64,000 nucleotides of DNA from Streptomyces sp. CMB-StM0423 (GTDB lineage Bacteria; Actinomycetota; Actinomycetes; Streptomycetales; Streptomycetaceae), in the NCBI RefSeq assembly GCF_002847285.1, contig NZ_CP025407.1, forward strand, positions 3,422,501-3,486,500, written 5' to 3'. How positions within the stretch are numbered: position 1 is the stretch's first letter; each line of letters begins with the position of its first letter. Positions 18,407 to 36,052 of the stretch are shown here, in pieces. The notes beneath the pieces are model-generated. The model was not told the DNA's origin, did no database searches, and was given only the letters and a program-made list of their open reading frames with translations. The position numbers and the translations under genes are program-made.

Positions 18407-18439
18407 CCTGCCGGAGGGAAGCCGTCACCGCAGCCGGAA

Positions 18440-19300
18440 TCAGCCAGGCCAGTCGACAGCACCGCCGAGTATCGCAGAAGCGGCCTCGTCAACTATTTCC
18501 CGGAGCCCGCTGATACCGGGGACAAGGACATCGCGTGGAACGTCGAACCGGCAGGACTCCCACCTCGCTGCGGCTCCTCGGTCTGCCGGAGCCTGCGTGG
18601 CTATCCAGACGGCTGGAACAGTGGCGACAGCGGCCGCTTTCAGCCCTTCTGTCAGCCGCACTGCAACGAGTTGCCAACTGGCATCGTTGCGCATTGTCTC
18701 GTACTCGTTGCGTGAGAGATACACCGGGAGTCGGCCGCGGCGGGTAGTCGACTTCACCTCGATGTGGGCGCACAGTCCCACTGCACGCACGGCGATGTCG
18801 TAACCGAAGCAGTCAGCTTCTGCTGCGACGTGCAGAACTTCCGCCGCCTCGGGCAGGCCTTCGCAGAGCAGATGGACAAGCGCCCGTTCACCAGCCCCCC
18901 CGATGCGCTCTCGCTGCGCCGTGTCAATTTTGCCCCATGCCGCACGCACGCAGGCAAAAGCTTCCTCGGCGCTGAGGCCAACCGCTCGGGCCGCGCTCAG
19001 CGCGTCGCCGGGAAGCTCTTCGGGCGTCGTGACAAGCACATCCATATCCGCAAACCACGGCGTCGCCTCGGTTAGCGCATGCTCCAAGACCCTGTGCTGG
19101 GGTCTTTGCACGGCGCCCGGGCTCTCCAGCAGCCCTCCGGCGCGGAGCCAGCTATAGGCCGTCTCGTACTGAGTGGGGGTGAGATCGCTGTAGGCGTGGT
19201 GCGTCGCGAAAAGCGCCCGGCAGCGGGCTGGGCCTGAGTCCGTCAGGTGCGTCAGCCACCTTACGGCCCCCCTCAGTACGGGTTCAGGCGGTACGGGCAC
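18440..19300 (-). CDS. DUF3883-domain putative PD-(D/E)xK nuclease
   Basis: A 286-residue protein. Residues 135-215 form a DUF3883/restriction-endonuclease-like fold: GERALVHLL (Glu138), FGYDIAV (Asp168) and HIEVKST (Glu181-x-Lys183), then RNEYETM. The N-terminal half is helical and unassigned. The GTG start at 19300 lies inside the end of the helicase gene (17-bp overlap), making it the third gene of a minus-strand operon with the ParB-like and SNF2-like genes. DUF3883 domains recur in helicase-nuclease defence systems, so a DNA-cleaving effector role is inferred. It is convergent with vsr, 33 bp apart. Confidence 0.75.
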   Translation of the reverse strand: MPVPPEPVLRGAVRWLTHLTDSGPARCRALFATHHAYSDLTPTQYETAYSWLRAGGLLESPGAVQRPQHRVLEHALTEATPWFADMDVLVTTPEELPGDALSAARAVGLSAEEAFACVRAAWGKIDTAQRERIGGAGERALVHLLCEGLPEAAEVLHVAAEADCFGYDIAVRAVGLCAHIEVKSTTRRGRLPVYLSRNEYETMRNDASWQLVAVRLTEGLKAAAVATVPAVWIATQAPADRGAAARWESCRFDVPRDVLVPGISGLREIVDEAASAILGGAVDWPG

Positions 19301-21119
19301 GGAGATAGCCCATCAGTGCCTGCAGATCCTTCTGGTCCAGACCTGCTCCTACGGCGGGCTCCTCATCCAGATCAGCAAGCTCACGTACAGACGGGTCGTC
19401 GAGGATGCTGCCCATGAACAGAAGCTTGTCGGCGAGACGCTGGTCCACCACCTCGTCGATGGTCCCCTCGGAGACCAGAACGGTGACACGGGTTTCTGCG
19501 TCGGAAGCCAGACCAAGGCGATGGATCCGGTCCAGGCTCTGCAGGTACCGCCCGGCGGCAAAGTCACGGTCGACGTAGACGGCGTCATGGCAGTGGTGGT
19601 GCAAGCTGATTCCCTCACCGAGGGTAGCGGGGTTGGACAGCAGGACCATGCAATCGGGGTCGCCACGGAACCGGGCGATCTCTGCCTCGCGTTCTTCGGT
19701 GCCCCCGTAAACGATCGAGGGCGAGAACTCACTCAAGATGCGCCGCAGTGTGGTGAGGCTGCGGATGAACGTCGACCAGACCAGCGTCTTCCGGCCGAAG
19801 GCGGCGTTCTGGGCGACGATCGCGAGAACCTCGCGGTACTTCGATGACATCTCGTAGCTTGGCAGGTCCCTCATGAGCTGGAAGAGCGGCGTCCCCTCTG
19901 GCACTGCCAGCGGTGGTACCTGGTACGACAGCGGCTCGTACTTTGTCGTCCCAACAGACAGGAGCGCAGGGCTGATTGCGGCCATGAGGAGATAGACTGC
20001 GATCCTTCCGAGCGCCTGGAATTCACTTTCCGCATTGTGAGAGCGGGCTGAGAACCGCCCGGTGAGCGCCTCGTACACCTCCCGGTGGAGTGGCGGGAGA
20101 GGAACAGGCCTCCGTGTCGTCGTCACTGGAGGCAGGCCCAGCTCTTGCTTCGTCGTGCGGGCGAACAGCGGCCGCAGTACTCGGCTCGCCTTGGCCAGGT
20201 CCCCACCGGCGACTGCCTGAGTGACATGCTGGCGCCCGTAGCCTGGCCAGACGAAGCTGAACAGATTCTCAAGGTCGCGCACACCGTTGGGTGCGGGAGT
20301 GCCCGTGAGCACCAGCCGGTGGCGGGCGCGCGGGCCAAGCGCCAGGCAGGCAGAGCCGTATGTGCCCTGGGCACCGAGTTTCGTCCGGTGAGCCTCGTCC
20401 AGCAGCAGCAGAGACGGCCGTGCCGCGAGCCACTGGCCGAGGCTGTTGACGACACCGTCGAAACGGAGGCGCTCGTAGTTCACGATCAGGGCTTCGGCTG
20501 CCGGGTCTGCGTCCCGTGCAGCCACGGCCATACGCAGCGGCTTGGCCAGGCAGGTGGCGTTCTCCTCCTGCCACGCCTCGAAAGATGACTTAGGACCGAC
20601 GACCAGCAGCCGCTCAATCCCGCGGGTTTGGCGCAGAACGCTGAAGACCGCCAGCCCGACACGGGTCTTGCCTGCTCCAGGGACGGAGAAGTTGGCACCA
20701 TGGTGCATGGAAAGCAGCCGGGCGGTGTCCCGGCGCTGGAAGTCTGTCAGCTTGCCGGTCCACTCCCCTCCGAGCAGGCTGTCCAGATCCCCGGGGTCCA
20801 TCTCCGCCGGCCCACTCCTTGCGGTGCCGAGGCGCTCAGCCACGATACGGGCGTCGTTATGCGTGTCGGTGACCAGCGTCTGCAGCTCAGGTTCCCAGAT
20901 GACTCTGCTTGGCTCTGGCCAGTCCGCGAGCGCCGCCAGGTTCGTCAGCAGATCGTCCAGATTGATGTCGAGCGTGGTCGGCGAGGCGTGCACCCCACTG
21001 CTGAAGCGCAGAGCGATGCGCCGAAGTTCCGCTTCGAACCCGTCACGGACCCGGATTCGCACCTGTGTGGCGCTGTCCCCGAACCCCAACTGCAGGCTGG
21101 GGCTGGCCGCGGCTTGCAT
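19284..21119 (-). CDS. SNF2-type superfamily 2 helicase/translocase
   Basis: A 611-residue helicase. The P-loop is FSVPGAGKTRVGLAVF (146-152), the Walker B/DEAH box is LLLLDEAHRTK near 240, and motif III is LTGTPAPNG near 280. The second RecA fold shows FGRKTLVWSTFIRSL and LSNPATLGEGISL, then QSLDRIHRLG near 550 (motif VI). The P-loop VPGAGKT matches small SNF2-like helicases of bacterial defence loci. Its ATG at 21119 overlaps the upstream gene's stop by one base (TGATG), so translation is coupled. It is probably the motor linking the ParB-like protein and the DUF3883 nuclease. Confidence 0.85.
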   Translation of the reverse strand: MQAAASPSLQLGFGDSATQVRIRVRDGFEAELRRIALRFSSGVHASPTTLDINLDDLLTNLAALADWPEPSRVIWEPELQTLVTDTHNDARIVAERLGTARSGPAEMDPGDLDSLLGGEWTGKLTDFQRRDTARLLSMHHGANFSVPGAGKTRVGLAVFSVLRQTRGIERLLVVGPKSSFEAWQEENATCLAKPLRMAVAARDADPAAEALIVNYERLRFDGVVNSLGQWLAARPSLLLLDEAHRTKLGAQGTYGSACLALGPRARHRLVLTGTPAPNGVRDLENLFSFVWPGYGRQHVTQAVAGGDLAKASRVLRPLFARTTKQELGLPPVTTTRRPVPLPPLHREVYEALTGRFSARSHNAESEFQALGRIAVYLLMAAISPALLSVGTTKYEPLSYQVPPLAVPEGTPLFQLMRDLPSYEMSSKYREVLAIVAQNAAFGRKTLVWSTFIRSLTTLRRILSEFSPSIVYGGTEEREAEIARFRGDPDCMVLLSNPATLGEGISLHHHCHDAVYVDRDFAAGRYLQSLDRIHRLGLASDAETRVTVLVSEGTIDEVVDQRLADKLLFMGSILDDPSVRELADLDEEPAVGAGLDQKDLQALMGYLRARTA

Positions 21120-22528
21120 CACTTGCCCCTCGTAGCATCAAGCAGCCAGGCAACCCCGTCGCCGGGGGAGTCGAAGGTCCGGCCTGCCAGTCTGGCCAGC
21201 CTGGCCAGGCTGTCACGCAGCGCGATCAGACCGTCGTCGAAGGAGTCCTCGTCCAGCACGCGCTTGGCCCTGGCATCGGCAAACTCCAGAACGCACTGGC
21301 TAACATGCTCAGCCGCATCCGTCAGGCGGTCTGGCACGGCTGCCCGTCGCTTCTTAAGCTGCGCGTTCAGTCCGGCCATTCTGACTGCGACGTCGAAAGT
21401 TTCCCTCGCCTTCGTAATCTTCTCGTTGGCGGCGGCCACCAGAGGCGGCTCCAACTGTCCATCAGCCTGCTGCGCCGCCTTAGCCTGCAGAAGGGTGTCG
21501 GTGAGTGCCTTGACCGCCCGAACCGGTTCCGGCTCTGCCGGGAGGACGACCCCTGGCAGACCGGGGATTGCTTTGTCAGCGGCTTCTGCTGTTCCCGGGC
21601 GCAGTTCATCTGGCAGCCGGGGGGCAAGGAAGTCGCTGTGGAAGTCCGCCTCAGCCAGCCGGAGGCTGGTCTTGGGGTAGTTGAGTACCACCATGGCCAA
21701 CCGGGACTCCTTCAGCATCTCGGCCGCATCCGCATTAGTCTCAGCGCACGTCACGTAGTCCCGCTGCAGCTCACGCAGCTTCTCCTGGTGTCCTTCGAAA
21801 TCCACCAGACGCAGCTTCACTCCACCGGCCGTGACACTCCGGTCGATGGCCTCAAGGATCATCTGGTAGACACGGCGGTCGGTCCTGAGCGTCTTGAGTT
21901 TGATGTTGAAGTCCCGCGCCACATCCTCTTCACGCCGACTACGGGCAAGTTCGTCCTCGATCGCTATGAGCTGGTTGATGTAGGAGTAGTCTCGGCGCTT
22001 GTCATGGCGCAACTGCAATGACATCTCAACGTCGTTGATGTCCCGGTAGACAGTGTCCGCAGGCAGGACGCCGACTCGGATGTCCTTGACTCCCAGCTCC
22101 CGCAGGGCCGCACAGCGCGTGTTGCCGTCGACGAGGATCCCATCAGGCGTGATGATCCCAGACTCGCGCTGTCCGTAATCCTCCAGTTCCTCCCGCAACT
22201 CGATGTACTCAGGGTCGGTCTGTGCGGGGTTGGACGGCTGGCGGGTGAGGAGGTAGTGGAGATACTCCTGCGCCTCATCGCTCCAAGGCCGCCCGTCCAG
22301 GGTCCGGCTGCGCTCAGAGTCGAGCGACCGCTGGGCACGAACACGGTGGGTATCGGGGTTGAAGTACAGCATCTCCACTGGCATCGCGATCACGTGCAGG
22401 TACCGTTGCTCCCCGCGGAAGGTGACGGTGACCTTCGCCCCTTCTTCCGCTTTAGCCTGCTTCAGGCGTTCCGCGACCATTGCGCGGTTCTCCTCGGCAA
22501 GAGGGGGTGAACCGAACTCTTCGAACAT
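21119..22528 (-). CDS. ParB-like nuclease-domain protein
   Basis: A 469-residue protein with a ParB/Srx-like domain at about residues 75-190: TPDGILVDGNTRCAALRELG is the nucleotide-binding box (DGNTRCAAL for the usual GxxRxxA), followed by helices that may include an HTH. ParB-fold proteins hydrolyse CTP or cut DNA; which applies here is unknown. The C-terminal 200 residues are helical. GGAGG lies 8 nt before the ATG. It heads a three-gene minus-strand operon and is divergent from the treble-clef protein gene. I do not recognise the whole protein as a named family. Confidence 0.7.
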   Translation of the reverse strand: MFEEFGSPPLAEENRAMVAERLKQAKAEEGAKVTVTFRGEQRYLHVIAMPVEMLYFNPDTHRVRAQRSLDSERSRTLDGRPWSDEAQEYLHYLLTRQPSNPAQTDPEYIELREELEDYGQRESGIITPDGILVDGNTRCAALRELGVKDIRVGVLPADTVYRDINDVEMSLQLRHDKRRDYSYINQLIAIEDELARSRREEDVARDFNIKLKTLRTDRRVYQMILEAIDRSVTAGGVKLRLVDFEGHQEKLRELQRDYVTCAETNADAAEMLKESRLAMVVLNYPKTSLRLAEADFHSDFLAPRLPDELRPGTAEAADKAIPGLPGVVLPAEPEPVRAVKALTDTLLQAKAAQQADGQLEPPLVAAANEKITKARETFDVAVRMAGLNAQLKKRRAAVPDRLTDAAEHVSQCVLEFADARAKRVLDEDSFDDGLIALRDSLARLARLAGRTFDSPGDGVAWLLDATRGK

Positions 22529-22647
22529 TTGGGAACCCTCCCACGAAACCTGCCGTCCGGACTGGGTGCATCATGCCAGGGGGCGTCGGCAGCAAGGGCG
22601 CATGCTTGATAATGGGCCGGAAGCCGCCCTGCCCGACGGAGGACGCC

Positions 22648-23337
22648 ATGGCCTTGCCCGCATGGAACGAACCAGGTGTCAAGAGAGGCACGATGATCCG
22701 CGGCGCCCTGTGGCTGATCCAGGAGATTGGTGAAGGCGGGACGTTCACGAAAGAAGACGTCCGTGACGCCTTCCAGGGCGTAGCTCAGGCAGACCGCCGG
22801 ATCAGGGATCTGCGGGGCTACGGCTGGGTGATCCACACCAGTACGGATGACGCGAGACTCGCCTCGGAGCAACAGCGGTTCGTCAAGCAGGGGGTTGCAG
22901 TATGGGACCCGGCAGCGCGCAAGGCTGCTGAAGCACAGCACGCCGTCACGAGCAAGGAGAGGCAGGCAGCCCTTGAGCGGGACGAATTCATGTGCACGGT
23001 GTGCGGCATCTCGTCGGCCGAGCCGTACCTGGACGACTCGAACCAGACCGCGGCCCTCGTCGTAGTCCGCAGAATGACCGTCATGCCTGACGGCACAGAG
23101 ATCACGCTTCTGGTCACGGAGTGCAAGAGGTGCCGGGCAGGACGAGGCACTGTACCCGCGCGGGCCGATGAGGTCCTGCAAGCCGCCGCCGAACTCGACG
23201 AAAGCGACCGGCGGCGGCTGCTCAGGTGGATCGAACGCGGGCAGCGTAAGCCGTCGCCCGCAGACCGGGTCTGGAGCGCCTACCGGCGCCTGCCGGAGGA
23301 TGCTCGTAGCGCTGTGCGCTCCTCCCTGTCACGCTGA
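22648..23337 (+). CDS. Treble-clef/HNH-like protein with N-terminal winged helix
   Basis: A 229-residue protein. Residues about 10-90 look like a winged helix (IRGALWLIQEIGEGGTFTKE, then ADRRIRDLRGYGWVIHT). Residues 115-165 hold CTVCG and CKRC, the paired zinc cysteines of an HNH/treble-clef fold, but the His normally following the first beta-hairpin is absent. It may therefore bind DNA rather than cut it. GGAGG 5 nt before the ATG fixes the start; the longer frame upstream overlaps the divergent ParB-like gene. The cytosine methyltransferase follows in the same direction. Confidence 0.65.
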   Translation: MALPAWNEPGVKRGTMIRGALWLIQEIGEGGTFTKEDVRDAFQGVAQADRRIRDLRGYGWVIHTSTDDARLASEQQRFVKQGVAVWDPAARKAAEAQHAVTSKERQAALERDEFMCTVCGISSAEPYLDDSNQTAALVVVRRMTVMPDGTEITLLVTECKRCRAGRGTVPARADEVLQAAAELDESDRRRLLRWIERGQRKPSPADRVWSAYRRLPEDARSAVRSSLSR

Positions 23338-23534
23338 TGCGCCGCACTCGCACCGGTGCCGAAGGCTTGGCCCCGCTGGCACGCCGCATCTGGGCCGGTT
23401 CTCCGGCAGGCCACCCGACCTGCGAGTATTGTTCGCTCAGGTGCTGGAGCATCTGCAGTTACTTCTGCAGCCGAAGAGGCTGAACTGCTTATGATGCGCA
23501 AGCGCCGGACGCCGATCGCCTGGAGGTAGAGCAC

Positions 23535-24845
23535 ATGCCGGAACCAGATGCTGAAAATGGGCTTCAGGTTGTCGAGATCTGCGCCGGCGCTGGCGGTCAG
23601 TCACTGGGACTGCACCGGGCTGAGTTCAGTCACCTTCTGGCCGTTGAGCTGGACCGCAGCGCGGCTGATACCCTGCGCGCCAACCTGCCCAACGGCGAGA
23701 AAGTGGTCAGAGTCGGCGACGTGGCAGACGAGAATGTCTGGAACCCCAAGGAGTTTGAGGGAAGAGTCGATCTCCTGGCCGGCGGAGTTCCGTGCCCTCC
23801 GTTCAGCATCGCGGGCAAACAGCTCGGCACAAAGGACGAGCGAGATCTGTTCGCGTGGGCCATTCAATTGTGCGCAACTGTCAAGCCCAAAGCTCTTATG
23901 CTGGAGAATGTGCGCGGGCTCAGTTCTAACCGGTTCGCCGCGTACCGCCAGCACACGCTCGACCGTCTTCGGGACATCGGCTACGTCCCAGACTGGCAGC
24001 TTCTGCATGCCAAGGACTTCGGGGTTTCGCAGTTCCGGCCACGATTCGTACTCGTTGCCGTCCTGGAGGAATACGCACCTTACTTCAAGTGGCCGGAAGC
24101 CCAGGCCCATGAGCCTCCGACCGTAGGTGAACTCCTCCGGGACCTGATGGGTTCGAATGGCTGGGAGAGCGAGAACCTGGAAGCCTGGGTAAAGCGTGCC
24201 TGTGGGATCGCTCCAACGATCGTCGGAGGCTCGAAGAAGCACGGCGGTGCGGACCTGGGCCCTACTCGCGCCAAGCGGGCCTGGGCGGAACTTGGTGTCG
24301 ACGCCATGGGAATTGCCAATGAACCACCGATGGCCGGTTGGGCACCCAAAGGAAATGCGCCTGGCCCCAAGCTCACCATCGATATGGTCAAGCGGCTTCA
24401 AGGCTGGGACAACAACAAATTCTCGTGGGATTTCAAGGGCCGCAAAACAAGCGTGTACCGGCAGATTGGCAATGCCTTCCCTCCACCGGTCGCCATGGCC
24501 GTCGGTGAGGCCATCAGAAGCGCCCTGATGAGAGAGGGTGAACGTGGCAAACTGATCGAGACCACAGATGTCGTTCTTGATCCCGTATACAAGCTGCTCC
24601 ACAGCCATGGACGGCCTCTCACTGTCGAACAGATGATCTCGAAACTCGCACAGCGAGGCATCGTCATGAGCCAGCCCACAGTCGAACGTCACCTGAACCA
24701 CCTCAGCCGCGACTTCGAACTCAGGACCAAAGAACGGTCATCTGGCGCAGTAGCGTTCAGTCTGGGAGATTTCCAGGGCTTCATCGGACAGGATGACCAC
24801 CGACGGCACGTACTTTTCGCTGAGCAACGCTCGAAGATCAGCTAA
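23535..24845 (+). CDS. DNA (cytosine-5-)-methyltransferase
   Basis: A 436-residue C5-MTase. Motif I is EICAGAGGQSLGL (residues 14-26), motif IV is GGVPCPPFS with nucleophile Cys87, motif VI is LENVRGL near residue 122, and IGNAFPPPVAMAVGEAI is motif X. Residues about 355-436 add a winged-helix-like tail (LTVEQMISKLAQRGIVMSQP) not needed for catalysis. GGAGG is 8 nt before the ATG. It probably protects the host against the NaeI-type enzyme or another nuclease of the island, and Vsr would repair its deamination products. Target unknown. Confidence 0.92.
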   Translation: MPEPDAENGLQVVEICAGAGGQSLGLHRAEFSHLLAVELDRSAADTLRANLPNGEKVVRVGDVADENVWNPKEFEGRVDLLAGGVPCPPFSIAGKQLGTKDERDLFAWAIQLCATVKPKALMLENVRGLSSNRFAAYRQHTLDRLRDIGYVPDWQLLHAKDFGVSQFRPRFVLVAVLEEYAPYFKWPEAQAHEPPTVGELLRDLMGSNGWESENLEAWVKRACGIAPTIVGGSKKHGGADLGPTRAKRAWAELGVDAMGIANEPPMAGWAPKGNAPGPKLTIDMVKRLQGWDNNKFSWDFKGRKTSVYRQIGNAFPPPVAMAVGEAIRSALMREGERGKLIETTDVVLDPVYKLLHSHGRPLTVEQMISKLAQRGIVMSQPTVERHLNHLSRDFELRTKERSSGAVAFSLGDFQGFIGQDDHRRHVLFAEQRSKIS

Positions 24846-25440
24846 TTTGCTGGCGGGACCTTCGCTGCTCTTTGAGGCGACGATTTCGGTCAGGGGACAC
24901 TGGTGGCCTGCGTTCGATCCAGGTCAAGATCGCCATCCGCATCTCCCGCCAGGTGGCCCAGGTGTGGGCTTGAGGAGGTTCTTCTGCAGCAGCGCGAAGA
25001 AGCTGGCCAACGCCCCCTCGACCCGGCCGATCGAGCAGACCAATTCCTGCCGGATGAGTACCGCGCCGGACGACAACGGACCCCAGGGCGGCCACCGCGA
25101 GGCGGCACTTCCCGGGCGTGGATGGCATAAGCCCACGATGTGGCCGGAATACACGTCCTTGATCGCACACAGGTACAGCTTGCCCCCTCGCCGGTCGCAT
25201 GCTTGGCGTGTCCGTAAGTCACAGCCGGTTCAGCCCGTCCGCGGTGAAGTTGCGCCGCACCCGGTCATCGTGAACCAGCGGCAGTCCCCGGCGTACTTGG
25301 CGCGGCTCTTGTGCTTGACGAACGCGCGCCACTGGCCCGTGAGCCGGCAGATCCGCCAGGCGGGCCGCCCGGGCCATCGGCCCCCAGCAGCACGTGCTTC
25401 GTCGACGAGGAATCGGGGCCCGAACGTGGGTCGTCACGGC
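24846..25440 (-). pseudogene. Decayed IS3-type transposase (OrfB) remnant
   Basis: Read on the minus strand in several frames, the segment gives pieces of an IS3-family integrase in the right order. They are VHDDRVRRNFTADGLNRL (about 25220-25290), then KLYLCAIKDVYSGHIVG-like residues (about 25120-25185). SIGRVEGALASFFALLQKNL (about 24970-25045) and ILTWIERR (about 24900-24930) follow. The part carrying the HSDRGSQF motif is missing, and frameshifts and stops separate the pieces, so it is dead. No terminal inverted repeats were identified. It lies between the two halves of the defence island. Confidence 0.8.
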
Positions 25441-25874
25441 ACGTACTGGACAAGGCGCTGGCCGGATAGATGGCGGACCTGGCCGACCCTGCCGTCATCC
25501 GCCACTCCCGCCGCGATCACCCGACATGGACACCCGTTCGGCCAGGCACAGGGTTGAGCGGTAGGCGGAAACCTGCAACTTCGGTGCTCCGTGATCCAGA
25601 TCGGCATGGAACACCGTTCCGATGCGAGAAAGATCGCCGACTCTCAAGCGCCCGTTGGCGAGGATGAGCAGCCACACGCCCGTAAGTTGCAACGGCCACA
25701 AAGATACGCATATGCCTATCGCGTGAGGATCCCTATGGGTAGCGTTGGCTGGACTGGTCGGATTGGCAGGGCCGCCCGACGCAGCAGGGCAGGCGATAGT
25801 GCCTGGGATGCGGGGGCATGTCTTCGCAGCGGTAGACGAGCATGCGGCTGCGGCGGTGGAGCTGGAAAGGTTAG
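25441..25874. other. Non-coding spacer with possible transposase scraps
   Basis: No intact gene. A minus-strand frame (about 25500-25700) reads GRLRVGDLSRIGTVFHADLD, which could be another degraded integrase core fragment (a GTVFHADHG-like motif), but the match is short. The rest leads into the next operon; GAAAGG precedes its ATG at 25875. A promoter for the three-gene helicase operon must lie here, but I could not pick one out. Confidence 0.35.
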
Positions 25875-27968
25875 ATGAGGTCTGAGTACAAGCAGTGGCA
25901 TGAGGTGCTCTCGGCAGAGTTCTTCGGTGCGGGCAATGCGCTACGGAGCACCGTCCTGTACGTCGACGCTGAAGTCGAACAGGAGCTGGCCCAGCGCATA
26001 GGAACGGACCTTGCCCAGGCTGTCGCCGGTGAACTCAACTGGAGCGACACCGATAAACCACTGTTCAGCCGCGTCCAGCACGAGTGCGCAATCTGGGAGC
26101 AGCACGGAAGTGCGGGCCCTCCGCCGAGCCTGCCGGTGCTCGCCCTGTCCGTGCTGGCGGCTACCCGTATGGCCTCCTCGGACGGCATGCTCAAGTCCAA
26201 CTTCTACGGGCGGTGGATCCAGCTGTTGGGCGAGCAATCCTCCAGCCCTCGGGCACACAAGCTTGAGCACGCGTTTCGGGACGTGGCAGTGATGTGGGAG
26301 GAACTCCGTACCTGGCTTGATGAGACGGGCGGCCTCTACGGCGCCAGCACTGTCAGCACTGATAAGTTCTACTGGAAGATCGGCTACCCAATCTCGCAGG
26401 CGCTAGTACGCGGCTCAGATCGGCAGATCCTCACTCGGTTCTTCGCCGCTACCCGGTTGCGGCCGCACAATCCCCATGGGGTTTCCGGCCGCGAGTTGCT
26501 GCGGCGCCTGCGTGTATGGACAGCAGGGCGAGACAGGCGCCTGTCGCCCCGGCTTATGGAGGAGCTCGTCAGTGCCCCGGATACGGGCGACGCTCTGATC
26601 GCCAGTCTGGTCAAACGGCTCGCCGATGACTGGGACGGCACCCTTCACGAGCCGGAGCGCGAGCACCGGCGCCGTGCCATCGGACTGAGGCTCGTAGTTG
26701 CGGACCGCGGCAGGCGGCTGGAATGGCTCGCCGAAGCATGCGACGGGATCGACGAGGCGCGCGTCGCAGTGCTAGGCGGCCGTTCGTTCACGCTGCACAA
26801 GGGCTACGGGGACGTCTACGACGGGCTGGAGTCGCTACACCCCTCCTGGCAGCAACTGGGGCACGGACTACGCCTTCAGGGGGAAGAACTAGTCCTTGAG
26901 TGGGCACCACAGGAAGTCGTGCTGTTGCGGCTGCACCCGTACCTAGGGGAGTGGGTGAGTACTGAGTATTTCGAGCCCGGCGAGCAGCACTGGATTCTGG
27001 CAGCCGACTCTGCTGTCCGCGCAGTGCGCTCCATGGTCGAAGCCCTCGGCGGCCGTACAGCCCGCGAGGCTCCGGCAACGGTGCCGGGGTGGAAGCTGTT
27101 CAAAGGGGTGCGCGCCGTCAACGGACTGGCCTTCGCAAGCGCCCTCGATCGGGGAGGAGATCACTCGCACGTCCTCGAGCCCCAGATCCGGAATCATGCC
27201 GCGTTGTCCGGTGGGCTGCGTATCGCCCCTGAGTACCGGGCAGGTGCCGGAGTGGCCGGCCACTTCCTCCGAGGTGGTACTCCCGATCTCATGCTGCCGG
27301 CCAGCGACTCTCCAGACGGCCTAGTGGAAGTCGTCCTCGACGGCCGCACTGAGAAACTTCGCGCTGATCCCCGAGTGCCCTTCCCACTCTGCCTGATCCC
27401 CCTCGACGAGGGAGAGCACTGTGTCGGTACGGCCGACAGCAGCCAGGTCTTCACGCTGCACGACGGACTTCACGAGCGCCTGCCTCCTGGGACCGGGACA
27501 CTCGGGTACCTCGGCGACGGTACCGCCCGGCCCTGGCTCAGCGATGTTACGGGCTCCGAGGCAGCCATCCGCGGGGCTGAGGCTGCAAGCATCATCAGCC
27601 TCCCGCGGACCGAGCTACTTCGTACAAGCGTTCTGGAAGCTGTGCTGCTCGATCCCCAAGGGGGTGTGCGCCGGGCCAAGCAGCAGCAGGTCCCGGCCTG
27701 GATGGCTTCCCGCCTGCCTGCCGTAGCCCTTGGCCCCTGCCTTGAGGTCGAGGTGCCGGACGGATATGTCTGGCTGGTCTACCGCACACCGACCCGCTGG
27801 TCGGTCAGGGCGCTGACAGCAGAGGCTGACATCGCGGCTCCCACGCCGGCACCCGAGGACTACGCCTGGGCGTACGCAATCCTCAGCGCCGCCCAGCGTC
27901 TGCAGAACCTCGTCTGGCTCGACTACGTAAGGGCAGCCGAAGCGATCGGTGGAAGGCAGGGAGCCTGA
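25875..27968 (+). CDS. Unrecognised defence-island protein, first gene of the DUF1998 helicase operon
   Basis: A 697-residue soluble protein that I cannot assign to a family. No P-loop, nuclease triad or membrane segment stands out. The first 250 residues are mainly helical (with VSGRELLRRLRVWTAGRDRR), the middle has beta-rich stretches (ELVLEWAPQEVVLLRLHPYL), and Trp and Arg are frequent. Its TGA overlaps the next gene's ATG by one base, and that gene overlaps the giant helicase, so the three products are almost certainly partners. By position and size it could correspond to an accessory Druantia protein, but I see no motif proving it. GAAAGG precedes the start. Confidence 0.7.
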   Translation: MRSEYKQWHEVLSAEFFGAGNALRSTVLYVDAEVEQELAQRIGTDLAQAVAGELNWSDTDKPLFSRVQHECAIWEQHGSAGPPPSLPVLALSVLAATRMASSDGMLKSNFYGRWIQLLGEQSSSPRAHKLEHAFRDVAVMWEELRTWLDETGGLYGASTVSTDKFYWKIGYPISQALVRGSDRQILTRFFAATRLRPHNPHGVSGRELLRRLRVWTAGRDRRLSPRLMEELVSAPDTGDALIASLVKRLADDWDGTLHEPEREHRRRAIGLRLVVADRGRRLEWLAEACDGIDEARVAVLGGRSFTLHKGYGDVYDGLESLHPSWQQLGHGLRLQGEELVLEWAPQEVVLLRLHPYLGEWVSTEYFEPGEQHWILAADSAVRAVRSMVEALGGRTAREAPATVPGWKLFKGVRAVNGLAFASALDRGGDHSHVLEPQIRNHAALSGGLRIAPEYRAGAGVAGHFLRGGTPDLMLPASDSPDGLVEVVLDGRTEKLRADPRVPFPLCLIPLDEGEHCVGTADSSQVFTLHDGLHERLPPGTGTLGYLGDGTARPWLSDVTGSEAAIRGAEAASIISLPRTELLRTSVLEAVLLDPQGGVRRAKQQQVPAWMASRLPAVALGPCLEVEVPDGYVWLVYRTPTRWSVRALTAEADIAAPTPAPEDYAWAYAILSAAQRLQNLVWLDYVRAAEAIGGRQGA

Positions 27969-28915
27969 TGGCCGATACAGGAAGCTTGCTGCTGCGCTGG
28001 CTGAGCGAGCAGGGCGCCGGCACCCTGTCTGACGTCAAGCAGGGCATCTGGTGGCTCGCGGTCAAGCATTGCCCGGACATCGAACCGGGAGCGCCGGGGC
28101 GCTGGCTGCGCGACGCCGTCTCCCTCGCCTACATCGACATCGATTGGCGCAACCGGCGCTGGTGCGCGGCCCCGCCAGTCCTGACCCGCCTGCCGCACGC
28201 ACGAGGACTGGCGGTACTCACCGGGAGCCGGACAGCCGCGTTCGACGCGCGCGTAGCGCAGGCGATGGAGGATGGCTTGCTGGAGCTGTTCCGGGTGTCC
28301 AGCATCCGCCCGCCCACCGACATCCCCTTGCCCGCGTCCCTTATCGTCCAGTTCGATGACGAATCAGGGATCGCGAGCTGGGCGGTCGAGCTCGGTGTCT
28401 CTTACACACCGTGCTTCGCGCTGCAGGGAGCTTCGCTGCTACCTCCCTTGAGCCCCGGAGCGCCGACCTCTGCGCCGGAGTTCGGCAAGCCCCTGGAACA
28501 GTACGACTTCGCGCGCGGCGAGTACCGGCTTGTCCCGCGGCCCCACGGCGAAGGTCTGTACCGGCTCAAGCGGCGCGACGGCAAACGCGTATGCCAGGTC
28601 CTGCGCGACGGCGAATGGCACGAGACTAGCCACGAACAGGGCGTTTACCGTGTGCTGGAGACCCGGAGCCGGGCTGCCGACGTGCTGCGCTGGCGGCCGG
28701 AGAAGGGCTCAGGGCGCGAGAGGTTCGGGACCTTGTTCGTCGACTGGGGATATCCCTTGCCCGACTTGCACCGGCGCGTGGCCGTGATGTGCTGCGGTCT
28801 CGCGCCCCGCATCAATGCCCAGGCCGAAAACCTCGCTTACGACAACGTGCCCTACGCCGTAGCTGTCAGGATCTCCCAATCGCTCGGACAGCAACTGAGG
28901 GAGAACCATGAGTGA
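27968..28915 (+). CDS. Unrecognised defence-island protein, second gene of the helicase operon
   Basis: A 315-residue protein of unknown family. The N-terminus (LLLRWLSEQGAGTLSDVKQG, through about residue 65) looks like a winged helix, and residues 190-240 hold a beta-rich segment (LYRLKRRDGKRVCQVLRDGE). Its ATG overlaps the preceding stop (TGATG), with GGGAG just upstream, and its own end overlaps the helicase start by 8 bp. Tight coupling suggests a fixed stoichiometry with the helicase, perhaps as a loader or target-recognition subunit. That role is inference. Confidence 0.7.
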   Translation: MADTGSLLLRWLSEQGAGTLSDVKQGIWWLAVKHCPDIEPGAPGRWLRDAVSLAYIDIDWRNRRWCAAPPVLTRLPHARGLAVLTGSRTAAFDARVAQAMEDGLLELFRVSSIRPPTDIPLPASLIVQFDDESGIASWAVELGVSYTPCFALQGASLLPPLSPGAPTSAPEFGKPLEQYDFARGEYRLVPRPHGEGLYRLKRRDGKRVCQVLRDGEWHETSHEQGVYRVLETRSRAADVLRWRPEKGSGRERFGTLFVDWGYPLPDLHRRVAVMCCGLAPRINAQAENLAYDNVPYAVAVRISQSLGQQLRENHE

Positions 28916-31900
28916 CACCCCTTCGCAACTGCCCGGTCGCTCCGATCGGGACGTGGATATCCTCAGTTCGTTCGAGCACTTAAAGGATGCGCTCTTCCGC
29001 TACTACAACACGCCGTTCGGACTCGCTGATGAGCACCTCGAACGCGAGCGCCAGGATTTGTTCGACATGAACGGCGGAGCCTGGCGGCGTCCCCTGCTTG
29101 AGGTCCGCCCGCGCTACGTTCAGATGGATGCAGGCGTCGCGGAATCCGTGAGGGCAGCAGGAGCCCACCCCGACCTTGCGGAACTGGCGCAGCTCGGACT
29201 GTTGCAGGACGTCCGCTCCCTGTATGAGCACCAGCACCGGACTCTGATCGCCGCTGCGCGAGACGGACACGATGTCGTCGTCACGGCAGGTACGGGATCG
29301 GGCAAGACGGAGTCGTTCATGCTGCCCATCCTGGCCGACCTCGTCCACGAATCCGCCGACTGGCCGACCGACTCGCTGCCGTCGAACCGCTGGTGGGAGT
29401 CTCCTGACGGCAGTTATCAGCCCCAGCGGGCAGGCGAGGCAGGCCGGCACTCAGCGGTACGCGCCCTCATCCTCTACCCCATGAACGCGCTCGTCGATGA
29501 CCAGATGATGCGTCTGCGCAGGGCCCTGGACAGCGATGACGTCAGGGCGTGGCTTGCCCGGTCGCGGCCCGGCCACCGCTTCTACTTCGGCCGCTACACA
29601 GGGGCAACCCCCGTCCCCGGCGAGGTCGGCTCGGCAGCCGGCATCAAGACGTTACGCGAGGAGTTCGCCGCCACCGAGGAGCGCTCCCGCCAGGCGCAGA
29701 AAGCCGCCGGCGACGGCCGTTACTTCATTCCCCGGCTGGACGGCGCGGAAATGCGCTGCCGCTGGGACATGATCCAGGCCCCGCCCGACATCATGATTAC
29801 GAACTACAGCATGCTCAACGTCATGCTGATGCGCTCGCGCGAGTCGCAGATCTTCGACAAGACGCGCCGCTGGCTGGAGGAGGTGCCCGACGCCCGCTTC
29901 ACCCTGGTCGTCGACGAGCTCCACATGTACCGGGGCACTGCAGGCACGGAGATCGCCTACCTTCTGCGCAACCTGCGCCACCGCCTCGGGCTTGACCACA
30001 GGCCGGACAAGTTCCGCGTCCTGGCCGCCTCCGCGTCCCTCGAAGCCCCGCGCGACCTGGACTTCCTGCAGGAGTTCTTCGGCGTCGACCGAAACCGGTT
30101 CGTGGTCCTCGGCGGCCAGCCTGTGCTGCCGACGCACACTCGCACTGACATCTCCCGGCACGCCGACGCCTACGCCGCCCTGAACCCGGATACCTCGCCC
30201 GCCCAGGCCGACCAACTACTGGCGGACACCGGCGCCGGTGACGCATTTGTCAACGCCCTGCGCGATGGCGACCGGCTTATCGCCGATTTCGACGACACCG
30301 TCGCCACCCGCATCTTCCCAGCCGCTGACAGCGCTGTGCAGAAGAGGGCATTACGCGGAGTCCTCATCGCACTCCGCCGCTCGGCCAATTCCCGGACGCC
30401 CAAGCTGCGCGGACATCTCTTCTTCCGCAACATCCCCGGCGTCTGGGCCTGCTCAGACCCCAAGTGCCCCGACGCCCCGCGCTGGGAAGGCGTGGAGAGG
30501 ACAGTCGGCAAGCTGTACTCGCGCCCCACGCCGCGCTGCAGTTGCGACGCTCGCGTCTTGGAACTCCTTTACTGCCAGACCTGCGGAGATGCATTCCTCG
30601 GCGGATATGCACCAGCATCAGCCTTCCGCAACGCAGCCAAGGGGCACCCATTCCAAGCTGGCCTGCTCGCGGACCTGCCCGACCTAGACTCTCTGCCTGA
30701 CGCCGCTGCTATGGGGCCGAGCGCGGCCAACTACATCGTCTACTGGCCGCGCAAGGACGACCCGGCGGTGGAGAAGCTGGAGTGGAGTTCCAATTCGGAC
30801 CGGGGCACACTGAGAGCTGACTTCAAGTTCAAGCGCAGCCAGTACGACCCCCGCACCGGCATCCTCCGCAACCAGCGTGACCACACCGGCTGGTCCTTCC
30901 ACACTGGTCTGCCGCAGCGCAAGAAGGGGCGGCCCCGGCTCAAAGCAGAGGACCTCCCCGCGGCACCTACACAGTGCCCCAGCTGCGGCGACAACTGGGA
31001 GGTCAGGCAGGTTGGGACCGAGCATTTCAGCCTCAGCGACCCGCGCCGGATGCGTACGCCGGTCAGGTCCATGCGCACTGGTTTCGAGAAGGTCAACCAG
31101 GTGCTGACCACCGGGATCCTCTCCCACCTGCGGAACAGGCAGGCCGTGGTCTTCTCCGACAGCCGCCAGGACGCAGCGAAGCTGTCCGCGGGCCTGGGAC
31201 TGCGCCACTACCAGGACCTCCTGCGCCTGCTGCTCGCCGAGGAGGTCGACGGCCAGGGGGATCCAGTCGCCGACCTGGCAGCCGTATCGGGCTTCTACCG
31301 CAAGTCCCTCGACAACCCCGTCAACAAGGAAACGGCCAAAGCCGCCCGCGATCGGCTGCGCGCCCGTGATCCGGAGAGCTACGACGCCTGGGTGAAGCTC
31401 CAGAAGACATCTGAAAGTCTCGACGATCTCGACGACGACCTCCCCGACCCGGCAGAAGAGGCCGCGCTCTACCGTCGCCTTAGCCGGGTACCCAGCCTAG
31501 ATAGCCACGGAGCGGCCGTCGCCGAACGGCTGGTCCAGCACGGCATCAATCCCGGCGGCCCGAAGGCATCCCTGCAGCAGACGAGCTACCAGAAGGGCTC
31601 CCAGCCGCAGTCATGGACCTCTCTGTATCAGTGGCCCGAGCCCTCCGGCGGCAAAGTACGTGACGAATCCAGCCTGGTCCTGAGTGAGCGGCAAGAACAG
31701 TTGCGCCAGGACATCCGTGAAGCCCTCACTGGTGAGGTGCTCAACGGGCTATTCGGCAGCGTCGGACGTGACTTCGAGTCCCTGGGCCTGGGCTGGCTCA
31801 CCCTCTCCACCGACCAGGCGCCGCTCGAAGCCGAGCGGGCCTCCGATGCCGCACTGGCCCGGGCCAGCTTGCGAGTCCTCGGTCACATGCGTCGTTTCGC

Positions 31901-34490
31901 AGGACTGCGTAGCCCGGCTGACGAACCGCCGAAAAAGCTGCGTGACTTCTGGGCCAGTGCAGCGGAACACCTCGGGCAGGACCCGGACGACCTCCGCGAG
32001 ACGGTCGGGCAGATCTGGGGAGATGCAGTCAAGAAGTACATCATCCAACCCGAGCATGTCGCCTTGCGCCACGGCCGAGCGGTGTCCTGGACCTGCCCTG
32101 TCTGCCGCCGACGGCACCTCCACCCAGGCGTCGGGGTGTGCACGAAGTGCCGTCGGCCTCTGCCTGCGACGCCTGAACCATTCGAGGGCACAGACGCCGA
32201 CTACTACGCCTGGATGGCGCGTCGGCAGTTCGGAAATTTCCGCCTCAACGCGGCCGAACTCACGGGCCAGACCGACCGCCTGGATGCCCAGGCTCGCCAA
32301 GCCCGATTCCAAGGCATCTTCCTCGACGGCAAGGAGCACACGCTTCCCGACAGCCTCGATGTTCTCTCCGTTACCACCACGATGGAAGCCGGAGTCGACA
32401 TCGGCCCGCTGTCCGCTGTCCTGATGGCGAACATGCCACCGACCCGGTTCAACTACCAGCAGCGCGTCGGGCGGGCAGGACGGCGCACTTCGCCGGTCGC
32501 GCTCGCGCTCACCGTGTGCCGCGGTCGCAGCCACGACGAGCACTATTTTCAGGATCCCCAGCAGATCACCAACAATCCGACCCCGCCGCCGTACCTCTCC
32601 ACCGACATGAAGGACATCTACCAGCGAGTCCTCAGTGCCGAAGTGCTCCGTAGGGCCTTCGATGCAGCGCAGGGCGCGGCAGGGGATGACATGGGAGCCG
32701 ACCCGACCCGCAACGTCCACGGCCAGTTTGGCCACACTGCAGACTGGCCCGCCGTGAGCGAACAGGTCAGTGTATGGATCAAGTTGCACGACGACGAGAT
32801 CCGCAGTCTCGCCGAAGCCCTCGCGGAGCACACCCGCAACGCCTGGCCTCCGGATCAGGCGGCGGTTTGGGTGGCCCAGGAACTCGTGAAGCGCGTCAAC
32901 CAGATCGCCCACGAGCCTCGCGGCCACCACGAACTCAGCCAACGACTCGCGGAGTCAGGCCTGCTGCCTATGTTCGGATTCCCCACCTCAGCCCGCTACC
33001 TTTATACGAAGCGCCCCTCTGACTCCTATCCTTGGCCTCCGAGTGGAGTGGTCGACCGATCTCTGGACATCGCTATCTCTCAATTCGCTCCCGGTGCCGA
33101 GACCGTCAAGGACGGACAGGTCCACACGGCCGCCGGCACAATCGCGTTTGAGCCGACCGGGCGAGTTCCTCGAGCCGTGCAGGAACCACTAGGGAAGCCC
33201 GTCCACATCGGCATCTGCCTTGCCTGCGGACACCTGGCAAAGGACGTGCAGATGCTGCCAGAACAGGAGGATGCCCCGCCGCAACCTTGCCGCGCCTGCG
33301 GAACAACCGACGGCTCTTATCGCGAGATTGAACTCCGCGAACCGGCCGGCTTCTACTCCGCGGGTAAGGCCCGCGACTTCGACGGAAACTTCGCCTGGAG
33401 GGCCAGGTCGCTCGCCCCCCGCACCGCCGCAGACCTTGAGCACGGGGCGCCCCTGAAGATCAAGCTGACGGGCATGGTGGTACACGCCGGGAAGGGGGAG
33501 CGCTACTCGGTCAACGACAACGGAGGCCGCCTGTTCCACTTCACGAGAGTAAGCCCGACCACACGCTGGTCCGGCGCTTATCTGGAGGCCGGGGCCACCG
33601 AACTGTTCCCCTGGCTGGCGAACGACATTGCCGCCGGCGAGGAACCTCTCAAGACCGCCATCGGCGCGACCCAGCGCACCGACCTGTTCCTGCTCGGACC
33701 CCAGGTAAGCGAGATCCCAGCGCTCGGTCTGCGCCTCAACCTGACCTCCGTACCGCAGAGCACCGGCTTCCCCGACGACCGCTCCGGCAGGCGCGCGGCC
33801 TGGTACTCGCTGGCCGCCCTCCTGCGCACGGCCGCGGGCTCGCTTCTCCAGGTGCAGCCCAACGAGATTGCATCCGGCATTCACGGCGCAGGATCAGGTA
33901 GCAGCAAGGCGCGCACCTTCGCCTTCCTCTCAGACACCTTGGACAACGGTGCTGGCTACTGCACACACCTCGCGGAACGCGAGATCTTCGAGCAGTTCAT
34001 GGCGACTGCCAGGAAGATGCTGGCCGACTTCGCCGACGGTACACACGGCCGAACCTGCCGCGGCTCGTGCTACCAGTGCCTGCGCGACTACACGAATATG
34101 GCGTATCACAGCCTTCTGGACTGGCGGCTGGCCGGCGAACTCCTGGCCATCCTTCAAGGCGCGAGCATTGAAAGCAGCCAGTATGGCCGCCAGGCAGCAG
34201 GACTGCTGCGGAACTGGGCATCCGACTTCCCGCCCGGTGATGCGGAGTTCGTGGAGGACCTGGGCGGCACCGGTCCCGCGGTCCTCTTCGAGGAGCGGAT
34301 CTGGGTCGCTCCCAAGGGCCCGTTCGAGGCTGCCGACACCACGCTGTCCTCCCCTCGCATCAGCTCCGTGCGCAACGCCACCGCATCCGACCGCCGAGGC
34401 GTTCCAGACGTGGTATTTGTCGACGATTTCCTTCTCGACAAAGCCCCGGGCCGTGTGTCTGCCATGCTCGCCGACTTTGACCAGCTGTAG
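28908..34490 (+). CDS. Giant DEAD/DEAH helicase with DUF1998 (MZB-like) C-terminus, DruE-like
   Basis: A 1860-residue superfamily 2 helicase. VVTAGTGSGKTESFMLPIL (Walker A) is near residues 125-135, LVVDELHMYRG (DELH box) near 335, and SVTTTMEAGVDIG and QQRVGRAGRR (motifs V and VI) near 1150-1190. Zinc-binding pairs occur near 514-560, 691, 1062-1085 (CPVC, CTKC) and 1436-1465 (CLACG, CRACG). The C-terminal DUF1998 signature is CRGSCYQCLRDYTN near 1716. Size and layout fit Druantia DruE; other DUF1998 helicases include DISARM DrmA/DrmB, but those are split and smaller. It is the last gene of a three-gene operon and is followed by a strong terminator. Confidence 0.85.
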   Translation: MSDTPSQLPGRSDRDVDILSSFEHLKDALFRYYNTPFGLADEHLERERQDLFDMNGGAWRRPLLEVRPRYVQMDAGVAESVRAAGAHPDLAELAQLGLLQDVRSLYEHQHRTLIAAARDGHDVVVTAGTGSGKTESFMLPILADLVHESADWPTDSLPSNRWWESPDGSYQPQRAGEAGRHSAVRALILYPMNALVDDQMMRLRRALDSDDVRAWLARSRPGHRFYFGRYTGATPVPGEVGSAAGIKTLREEFAATEERSRQAQKAAGDGRYFIPRLDGAEMRCRWDMIQAPPDIMITNYSMLNVMLMRSRESQIFDKTRRWLEEVPDARFTLVVDELHMYRGTAGTEIAYLLRNLRHRLGLDHRPDKFRVLAASASLEAPRDLDFLQEFFGVDRNRFVVLGGQPVLPTHTRTDISRHADAYAALNPDTSPAQADQLLADTGAGDAFVNALRDGDRLIADFDDTVATRIFPAADSAVQKRALRGVLIALRRSANSRTPKLRGHLFFRNIPGVWACSDPKCPDAPRWEGVERTVGKLYSRPTPRCSCDARVLELLYCQTCGDAFLGGYAPASAFRNAAKGHPFQAGLLADLPDLDSLPDAAAMGPSAANYIVYWPRKDDPAVEKLEWSSNSDRGTLRADFKFKRSQYDPRTGILRNQRDHTGWSFHTGLPQRKKGRPRLKAEDLPAAPTQCPSCGDNWEVRQVGTEHFSLSDPRRMRTPVRSMRTGFEKVNQVLTTGILSHLRNRQAVVFSDSRQDAAKLSAGLGLRHYQDLLRLLLAEEVDGQGDPVADLAAVSGFYRKSLDNPVNKETAKAARDRLRARDPESYDAWVKLQKTSESLDDLDDDLPDPAEEAALYRRLSRVPSLDSHGAAVAERLVQHGINPGGPKASLQQTSYQKGSQPQSWTSLYQWPEPSGGKVRDESSLVLSERQEQLRQDIREALTGEVLNGLFGSVGRDFESLGLGWLTLSTDQAPLEAERASDAALARASLRVLGHMRRFAGLRSPADEPPKKLRDFWASAAEHLGQDPDDLRETVGQIWGDAVKKYIIQPEHVALRHGRAVSWTCPVCRRRHLHPGVGVCTKCRRPLPATPEPFEGTDADYYAWMARRQFGNFRLNAAELTGQTDRLDAQARQARFQGIFLDGKEHTLPDSLDVLSVTTTMEAGVDIGPLSAVLMANMPPTRFNYQQRVGRAGRRTSPVALALTVCRGRSHDEHYFQDPQQITNNPTPPPYLSTDMKDIYQRVLSAEVLRRAFDAAQGAAGDDMGADPTRNVHGQFGHTADWPAVSEQVSVWIKLHDDEIRSLAEALAEHTRNAWPPDQAAVWVAQELVKRVNQIAHEPRGHHELSQRLAESGLLPMFGFPTSARYLYTKRPSDSYPWPPSGVVDRSLDIAISQFAPGAETVKDGQVHTAAGTIAFEPTGRVPRAVQEPLGKPVHIGICLACGHLAKDVQMLPEQEDAPPQPCRACGTTDGSYREIELREPAGFYSAGKARDFDGNFAWRARSLAPRTAADLEHGAPLKIKLTGMVVHAGKGERYSVNDNGGRLFHFTRVSPTTRWSGAYLEAGATELFPWLANDIAAGEEPLKTAIGATQRTDLFLLGPQVSEIPALGLRLNLTSVPQSTGFPDDRSGRRAAWYSLAALLRTAAGSLLQVQPNEIASGIHGAGSGSSKARTFAFLSDTLDNGAGYCTHLAEREIFEQFMATARKMLADFADGTHGRTCRGSCYQCLRDYTNMAYHSLLDWRLAGELLAILQGASIESSQYGRQAAGLLRNWASDFPPGDAEFVEDLGGTGPAVLFEERIWVAPKGPFEAADTTLSSPRISSVRNATASDRRGVPDVVFVDDFLLDKAPGRVSAMLADFDQL

Positions 34491-34495
34491 TGGCA

Positions 34496-34534
34496 CCGCC
34501 CTTACGCCCTAGCCGCAAGGGCGTAAGGGCGGTG
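34496..34534 (+). terminator. Perfect 16-bp stem-loop terminator
   Basis: ACCGCCCTTACGCCCT (34496-34511) pairs perfectly with 34519-34534 across the 7-nt loop AGCCGCA, starting 6 bp after the helicase stop codon. It closes the three-gene operon and separates it transcriptionally from the PIN-like gene. No U-tract follows. Confidence 0.85.
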
Positions 34535-34622
34535 TGGCCGCTGCAGCCGTGATCGTCCGCCGATCTCAGATCTTTGTGCCAAGATGACCGGTCAGGGAGG
34601 CGTGATCGAACCGGAGGAGAAA

Positions 34623-36044
34623 ATGGGAGATCCGGTACTGCTGCAGAGGTTCGCAGCCTGGCTCCAGCCTGGTCCGACGGACGGCGATGCGGAGCGAAGT
34701 TCCTTCTTCAACAACGGCGTTATCGTGCTGGATACAAACGTCCTGCTGAGCCTGTATGAATACACCGAGACCTCCAGGTCAGAAGTTCTGTCGGCGCTTG
34801 AACAGACTGCCGGACGGCTGTGGATGCCCTATCAGGTCGGTCTTGAGTTCGTCCGCGGCCGCCGCAGCACTTTGGAGTCCCGCAAGAGGGCCCTTTCCGA
34901 TGCCGCCGCAGACGTCAACAAGAAGCTCATGGCTGCCCGCAAAGCGATCGTCGACGCCAAGAACGTCGTGTGCGCCCAGCTCGACAAGTACGCCCGGGCT
35001 CACCAGGAGATAGCGGGGCTCGACGCACTCGTCGCGGGTTCTGGCGTCGATGCGCACCTCGACGTGTACCGGCACGAGTTCAAACGCTACCTGGACATGC
35101 TCAAAGCAGACCACGGACTAGCACTAAGTTCCGCCGATGCGGAGGACCCCATCCTTGTGCACATCGCGAAGCTCTACGGAGATGGCATCGGCCAGCAGCC
35201 GGAGGACAGCGTCGTGCGCGGACGTCTAGAGGAGGCCACCGCCTTCCGGTTCCCGAACAAGATCCCTCCCGGATTCTCTGACTCTGGCAAGGACACGCCG
35301 CTCAAGTCCGCTGGCGACTTCCTCCTCTGGGAAGAACTGGTCGAGCATGCCACGAAGCTCCCGGTCGGCAGCCGCCGCGTGCTGTTTGTATCGAACGACA
35401 CGAAGGAGGACTGGTACGAGCAGGGCTCCGGCCCAAGCAGCTCCCGTCCGTGGCCGAGTCTTGTCGACGAGCTGAGACGGAGGGCACAGGCGGACTTGAG
35501 GGTCGAGACGCCACCGCACTTCTTCGGCGGCGTCAGAGAGTTCCTGGACGCCGAGCTCGCTGCGGATACGTACGCGGAGATCGAGCGGGTGTCAGAGTCA
35601 TTTGAGGAGAAGGTCCCGGACACACCGCTGGTAACGGAGGAGACAGCAGCTCACCTGGAACCGCCGGACGGACTGGCGCTTGATGCGTTCAATTCGGTGG
35701 GACTCGTCTCCTCGACCGTGCGTGCGGCTCTCGATTCAGCGTCGCCGTCCCGTCGGTTGTTCCAGTGGTGGCTGATCGGGGTGACGGCTCAGCTCGGGCG
35801 GCGGTCTGTAGGAGAAACGGAGCCGTCTGTAGCTATTGCTACGGCCACACGAAGCAGCGAGCCGCCTTCCCAGAACTGGGTACCCGGTACTGCCCTCCCG
35901 CCAGGTGAGTGGCTCCACCGGAACTCGTCGTGGATCGCACCATGGTTCATGGACCTGTTGGACTCCATCCCGCAGGCTGACCGCGCTGTCTTGCGCCGAC
36001 TGGCGGCGCAACAAGCAGAGAGCAATAGGCGCTCCCGAAGCTGA
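34623..36044 (+). CDS. PIN-like nuclease-domain protein with long C-terminal extension
   Basis: A 473-residue protein. Residues about 35-300 are a PIN-like domain of the large PIN_8 type. VIVLDTNVLLSLYEYTETSR carries the first catalytic Asp, then come MPYQVGLEFVRGRR, a helical insert (100-150) and VLFVSNDTKEDWY near 270 with the terminal Asp. PIN enzymes cut RNA. The C-terminal 120 residues are of unknown role. GGAGG 5 nt before the ATG at 34623 supports this start over the upstream ATG at 34584. It lies behind a terminator, so it probably has its own promoter, and no antitoxin-like gene adjoins it. It may be an RNA-degrading arm of the island. Confidence 0.75.
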   Translation: MGDPVLLQRFAAWLQPGPTDGDAERSSFFNNGVIVLDTNVLLSLYEYTETSRSEVLSALEQTAGRLWMPYQVGLEFVRGRRSTLESRKRALSDAAADVNKKLMAARKAIVDAKNVVCAQLDKYARAHQEIAGLDALVAGSGVDAHLDVYRHEFKRYLDMLKADHGLALSSADAEDPILVHIAKLYGDGIGQQPEDSVVRGRLEEATAFRFPNKIPPGFSDSGKDTPLKSAGDFLLWEELVEHATKLPVGSRRVLFVSNDTKEDWYEQGSGPSSSRPWPSLVDELRRRAQADLRVETPPHFFGGVREFLDAELAADTYAEIERVSESFEEKVPDTPLVTEETAAHLEPPDGLALDAFNSVGLVSSTVRAALDSASPSRRLFQWWLIGVTAQLGRRSVGETEPSVAIATATRSSEPPSQNWVPGTALPPGEWLHRNSSWIAPWFMDLLDSIPQADRAVLRRLAAQQAESNRRSRS

Positions 36045-36052
36045 CACCCTTC

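Follow-up and report, generated by a model that had tools for sequence, protein, structure and literature searches.

Druantia type IV was defined by PADLOC in 2021 as a combination of DruE and DruF with DruL instead of DruM and DruG; DruL carried no domain annotation in that description, and the anti-phage role of the type was a prediction (PMC8565338). We came across no published experiment in which a type IV Druantia was challenged with phage. In types I and II, the C-terminal part of DruE is reported to be an inactivated Vsr domain (PMC12458937). In type III, DruE engages DNA at 3' single-stranded tails and cleaves it via its PLD domains, with DruH as the likely sensor (PMC13192584). The locus described here lies in the window, a stretch of 64,000 nucleotides corresponding to positions 3422501-3486500 of a complete 8.03-Mb genome whose relatives are Streptomyces.

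RESULTS

Three overlapping genes assigned to Druantia type IV

Three overlapping reading frames with Streptomyces-like GC3 run on the + strand and are open throughout (Table 1). A TGATG sequence joins druF to druL with a 1-nt overlap, and druL overlaps druE by 8 nt. The same overlaps of -1 and -8 recur in relatives, which argues that the junctions did not arise by chance and bears out the coupling of the three genes proposed in an earlier, sequence-only reading.

In a PADLOC profile search, the three products matched DruF4 (1250.7 bits, residues 1-696), DruL4 (427.6 bits), and DruE4 (2596.9 bits, residues 15-1858), each over the full length. The next-best profiles were DruE2 and DruF2, consistent with the closeness of type IV to type II, and the DruG profiles PDLC00024 and PDLC00025 had no match anywhere in the genome. 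Given the full-length matches, the adjacency of the three genes with DruL replacing DruG and DruM, and the absence of DruG, their predicted products almost certainly represent DruF, DruL, and DruE of Druantia type IV. The sequence-only reading had rightly suspected DruE in the largest protein. It had recognized nothing in the two smaller ones, which is explained by their lack of any Pfam match, and had proposed either a type II-like system split by an insertion or a new type of DUF1998 helicase. As evidence against this, it had named clear matches of the two smaller proteins to a described system; the DruF4 and DruL4 profiles provide exactly that, the locus does not represent a new helicase type, and type II lacks its DruG here. 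DruL is carried by 24 of 391 Streptomycetales genomes, a sample that represents part of the known diversity.

Table 1. Positions of the features discussed, in the window unless a locus is named
Feature	Position	Strand	Remarks
Cytosine (C5) methyltransferase	23535-24845		upstream of druF; DruM2 (PDLC00032)
Integrase-core (rve) fragment	24927-25229	-	E 0.0094, below the Pfam cut-off
druF	25875-27968	+	697 aa; PADLOC DruF4 (PDLC00055)
druL	27968-28915	+	315 aa; PADLOC DruL4 (PDLC00057)
druE	28908-34490	+	1860 aa, YprA/DUF1998-family SF2 helicase; PADLOC DruE4 (PDLC00051)
Walker A, TAGTGSGKTE	29283-29312	+	T129, G132, K133, T134, and E135 invariant in 18 DruE
DEAH-type motif II (DELH)	29913-29924	+	D336, E337, L338, and H339 invariant in 18 DruE
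MZB (DUF1998) zinc-binding domain	33813-34082	+	Pfam PF09369, residues 1636-1725
Hairpin, 16-bp perfect stem	34494-34509 / 34519-34534	+	from sequence and fold; 3' of the druE stop
TGTGCCAAGAT	34575-34585	+	similar motif in the window, L003, L004, L005, L036, and L066
PIN_8 gene	34623-36044	+	about 473 aa; Pfam PF18476
Clade B pair	L042:1325-3957		equivalents in L037, L039, L041, L043-L045, and L048-L052

DruE combines the DEAD, Helicase_C, and MZB (DUF1998) domains with invariant SF2 motifs, as is typical of the YprA/DUF1998 family. The DELH motif, zinc-binding cysteine pairs, and DUF1998 domain reported before were all recovered, together with a Walker A motif; the MZB match, at 24.6 bits, just exceeds its cut-off of 24.2. 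Downstream of W1739, an alignment of 18 DruE sequences contains no invariant residue. Among solved structures, DruE matches PDB chains 9wae_A (E 1.8e-170) and 9tu7_Y (E 1.8e-44), the latter presumably DruE of type III, and 6znp weakly; the DpdJ, DrmA, and BrxH profiles likewise match weakly. The corresponding sequence searches with DruL, DruF, and the PIN_8 protein gave no meaningful match. In Streptomyces sp. GKU 895 (L005:10929-16528), druE is divided over two reading frames of 831 and 1035 residues, reflecting a frameshift or an assembly error.

DruL is homologous to the C-terminal region of a fused DruF

In nine genomes, each of a different species and all from another actinobacterial order (that of G451), druE is preceded by a single reading frame of 989 to 1066 residues (about 1,020), here called fused DruF. 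Using hhalign, the DruL profile aligned with the last approximately 280 residues of fused DruF (probability 99.3, E 2e-20, 274 columns); the first approximately 630 residues aligned instead with the DruF profile (E 3e-46). The controls, in which DruL was compared with the fused N terminus, DruF with the fused C terminus, and profiles were reversed, were negative (E 0.1-0.7). When run against the 4416 reading frames of all loci, the DruL profile retrieved DruL genes, DruL fragments, and fused DruF, and nothing else. Moreover, the summed length of DruF and DruL is confined to 989-1023 residues over 28 split loci, with 1012 in the window. By profile comparison, DruL is thus homologous to the C-terminal 280 or so residues of fused DruF, a relationship that appears to be new. 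DruF and DruL are accordingly one protein split in two, and it is very likely that they form one functional unit.

Split and fused forms are interleaved on the DruE tree. G897 encodes a member of the same family as fused DruF that is split into 715 and 362 residues and yet falls within the fused group, implying that fission or fusion occurred more than once. L059, wrongly labeled 'fusedFL' on that tree, was rejected as a fused DruF because its DruL region sits in two other frames. On viral contigs L068 and L069, where DruL has an N-terminal extension of about 150 residues, a shifted DruF/DruL boundary was considered but found no support, as the extension gives no match to the DruF C terminus. 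Likewise, DruF was not retained as a PD-(D/E)XK nuclease: its conserved GGxPDLVLP motif lacks a (D/E)XK after it. AlphaFold2 models of DruF (pLDDT 39, 7 sequences) and DruL (pLDDT 50, 8 sequences) were too poor for a fold search; at this low confidence, the N-terminal part of DruF is predicted to be helical and its C-terminal part rich in beta structure, and the N terminus of DruL resembles a winged helix.

A PIN_8 gene closes the homology block in clade A

The gene downstream of druE encodes a PIN_8 domain (E 3.5e-54) whose acidic residues D37, E75, D232, D259, and D263 are invariant in nine homologues, so that both the domain and the conserved acidic positions expected of a PIN protein are present. 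The reading frame is open from 34584. The starts of the relatives align with 34623, where GGAGGAGAAA stands before an ATG, making 34623 the likely start.

The clade of the window, clade A, is small, with seven loci: the window itself, L002, L003, L004, L005, L036, and the viral contig represented by L064-L066. In all seven, DNA homology extends from approximately the DruF start (25713-25873 in the window) to the PIN_8 stop codon (36037-36048), and the flanks are unrelated. Since the block ends at the PIN_8 stop in every case, the mobile unit consists of four genes; such a four-gene transferable unit including PIN_8 appears to be new. The PIN_8 protein of the window is also closer to those of Druantia loci (75-84% identity) than to those of three Druantia-free loci (56-62%), which indicates that PIN_8 traveled with DruF-DruL-DruE. 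In the three Druantia-free genomes (L060, L061, and L062), the PIN_8 homologue adjoins a methyltransferase.

The contig behind L064-L066, which holds the four-gene unit, is 121 kb long and comes from a virus collection (IMGVR_UViG_2930578203), a hint that the unit is carried by a prophage or an integrative element. A gene that we call c11 (about 197 residues, no Pfam match; L004:18233-18823) lies 3' of PIN_8 in L004, L005, L060, L061, and L062, whereas the window does not have it.

Between druE and the PIN_8 gene, the sequence-only reading had placed a perfect terminator ending the operon. The 16-bp stem is indeed perfect, but the hairpin has no T-tract and was absent from the output of the terminator scan, so that a terminator function is plausible at most, and the PIN_8 gene lies beyond it. 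We rejected the hairpin as the end of the operon because the shared homology continues through PIN_8. Hairpins of different sequence occupy the equivalent place in L003 and L005. In L003, L004, and L036, the two genes lie 118-157 bp apart, compared with 6 bp in L002. Ahead of PIN_8, the conserved motif TGTGCCAAGAT is possibly an extended -10 element.

The upstream methyltransferase belongs to a different cassette

The cytosine methyltransferase noted earlier upstream of druF is there (METHYLTRANSFERASE), and DruM2 is its best profile at 631 bits, with MTase_II nearly equal at 576 bits. Its assignment as the DruM that accompanies DruE in type II does not hold, however. It lies outside the DNA block common to the clade A relatives and terminates a series (18440-24845) of NOV_C, SNF2, a 469-residue protein (U469), a 285-residue protein with a weak winged-helix match (U285), and the methyltransferase. 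L062, which lacks DruF-DruL-DruE, carries PIN_8, c11, the methyltransferase, U285, U469, SNF2, and NOV_C; L060, also without them, has the same series up to SNF2 within its stretch, and L061, again without them, has PIN_8, c11, and the methyltransferase. The occurrence of this cassette in Streptomyces without Druantia assigns the methyltransferase of the window to the cassette, and we rejected it as DruM on this synteny. The stretch between methyltransferase and druF, previously read as a dead insertion sequence, is decayed, but with its rve match below the cut-off an insertion sequence is weakly supported.

Further upstream are genes for a NaeI-type restriction enzyme (16954-17925, PF09126, E 3e-123) and a Vsr endonuclease (17807-18406), so that 16954-24845 forms a defence island of NaeI-type enzyme, Vsr, and the cassette. 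Elsewhere, a C5 methyltransferase adjoins five of the nine fused-DruF loci (L084, L085, L088, L089, and L090), where DruM-like genes may be genuine accessories.

Other type IV clades carry other downstream genes

The downstream modules follow the DruE tree, each being confined to one clade. In clade B, the commonest type IV clade in Streptomyces, two genes are coupled to druE. They encode proteins of about 580 and 300 residues, for which neither Pfam nor PADLOC gave a match above the cut-off; by eye, the larger has a J-domain-like C terminus without HPD. In clade C (L040, L046, L047, and L053), the type IV genes are followed by a PtuA/PtuB-like ATPase-HNH pair (PADLOC PDC-M01A/B), and a divergently oriented C5 methyltransferase lies upstream of druF. 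Clade D (L034 and L035), the sister of clade A, lacks PIN_8 and has a convergent AspBHI-like restriction enzyme of the 5mC-dependent type beside a C5 methyltransferase. The two would be an odd pair if they target the same site. No conserved gene was found downstream in clade E.

DISCUSSION

We consider it probable that the locus is a complete type IV anti-phage system whose unit, in this clade, includes the PIN_8 gene and which works as follows. DruE, by analogy with its type III counterpart, would act as a YprA-type SF2 translocase, loading on phage DNA intermediates that contain single strands. DruF and DruL, as two halves of what relatives make as one protein of about 1,000 residues, may sense infection or license DruE, a role that goes beyond the homology detected. 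Cleavage of nucleic acid would fall to the PIN_8 protein, since the DruE tail, which in other Druantia helicases holds a nuclease, lacks conserved residues. Transcription of the PIN_8 gene would start at a promoter of its own or reach it by reading through the hairpin. The upstream methyltransferase is not part of the system.

It is slightly more likely than not that PIN_8 is a functional partner of DruF-DruL-DruE. That it replaces the nuclease of DruE is conceivable rather than expected: DruE retains its helicase motifs but no conserved residue past DUF1998, which makes PIN_8 a candidate nuclease. PIN domains, however, cut RNA more often than DNA. The hairpin in the window and the spacers of 118-157 bp in several relatives mean that PIN_8 may be a neighbor and not a subunit. 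Possibly, then, DruF-DruL-DruE is complete by itself and PIN_8, alone or with c11, is a separate defence or toxin gene hitch-hiking downstream. The promoter-like motif that accompanies the hairpin between the two genes would fit such an arrangement, as would the PIN_8-c11 pairs beside a methyltransferase in three Druantia-free loci, the PADLOC definition of type IV, which does without PIN_8, and the other type IV clades, which lack PIN_8 and carry other genes, some of them not recognizable as nucleases. Against it, the homology block stops exactly at the PIN_8 stop in all seven loci at unrelated sites, c11 is missing from the window, and only 6 bp separate druE from PIN_8 in L002. On balance, we regard a hitch-hiking PIN_8 as a serious but lesser candidate.

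A type II-like arrangement, in which the methyltransferase acts as DruM and marks self DNA while the Druantia genes attack unmarked DNA, would account for the DruM2 score and for the C5 methyltransferases beside other DruF/DruE loci (the five fused-DruF loci and Streptomyces clade C). It is very improbable given that DruG is absent from the genome, that the methyltransferase falls outside the shared block, that the cassette from methyltransferase through U285, U469, and SNF2 to NOV_C is intact in L062 and partly so in L060 without Druantia, and that MTase_II fits nearly as well. Some YprA/MrfA relatives function in DNA repair (PMC12458937), and in view of the weak 6znp match the helicase operon might be imagined to serve repair or housekeeping instead of phage defence. 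The far stronger match to Druantia DruE, the patchy occurrence (24 of 391 genomes), the neighboring defence genes, and the copy on a virus-collection contig make this scarcely credible.

More tentatively, type II and type IV Druantia may share one DruF(-DruL)-DruE platform in which DruF is split in some lineages and to which a lineage-specific effector is plugged in at the 3' end. In such a scheme, the plug-ins might be PIN_8 in clade A, the PtuA/PtuB-like pair in clade C, and the two coupled genes in clade B, and each would be an effector recruited by a DruE that is itself devoid of nuclease. We do not claim a universal swappable nuclease, as none of the known nuclease domains was recognized in the clade B pair and clade E lacks a conserved downstream gene.

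With DruL recognized as the tail of DruF, classification becomes simpler, because types II and IV differ less than their names imply. Profiles of the fused and split forms should be merged, and DruF and DruL call for co-expression in experiments. The link to PIN_8 points to a specific protein that could be the missing nuclease and that experiments can address, and three-gene clones from clade A may be incomplete.

Compared with known systems, the locus shares with ARMADA, DISARM, and Dpd (PMC12458937) a core YprA-like DUF1998 helicase, but none of their partner genes is present in its unit. The YprA-type helicase core is also common to Druantia type III (DruH-DruE; PMC13192584, PMC13316683). 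In type III, however, PLD nuclease domains form the C-terminal end of DruE, and its partner is DruH, whereas DruE of the window has no conserved C-terminal residues and has DruF and DruL as partners. With type II (DruM, DruF, DruG, and DruE), the locus shares strong matches to the DruE2 and short DruF2 profiles and a nearby C5 methyltransferase. The genome of the window differs in lacking DruG and in having its methyltransferase in another cassette; long DruF2-type proteins, moreover, contain the DruL region in fused form. With type IV as defined by PADLOC (PMC8565338), the locus has in common the three proteins with full-length profile matches, the absence of DruG, and the co-directional, overlapping genes. 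It departs from that description in two respects: DruL is the C-terminal region of DruF instead of an unrelated protein, and in the clade of the window a PIN_8 gene closes the transferable unit.
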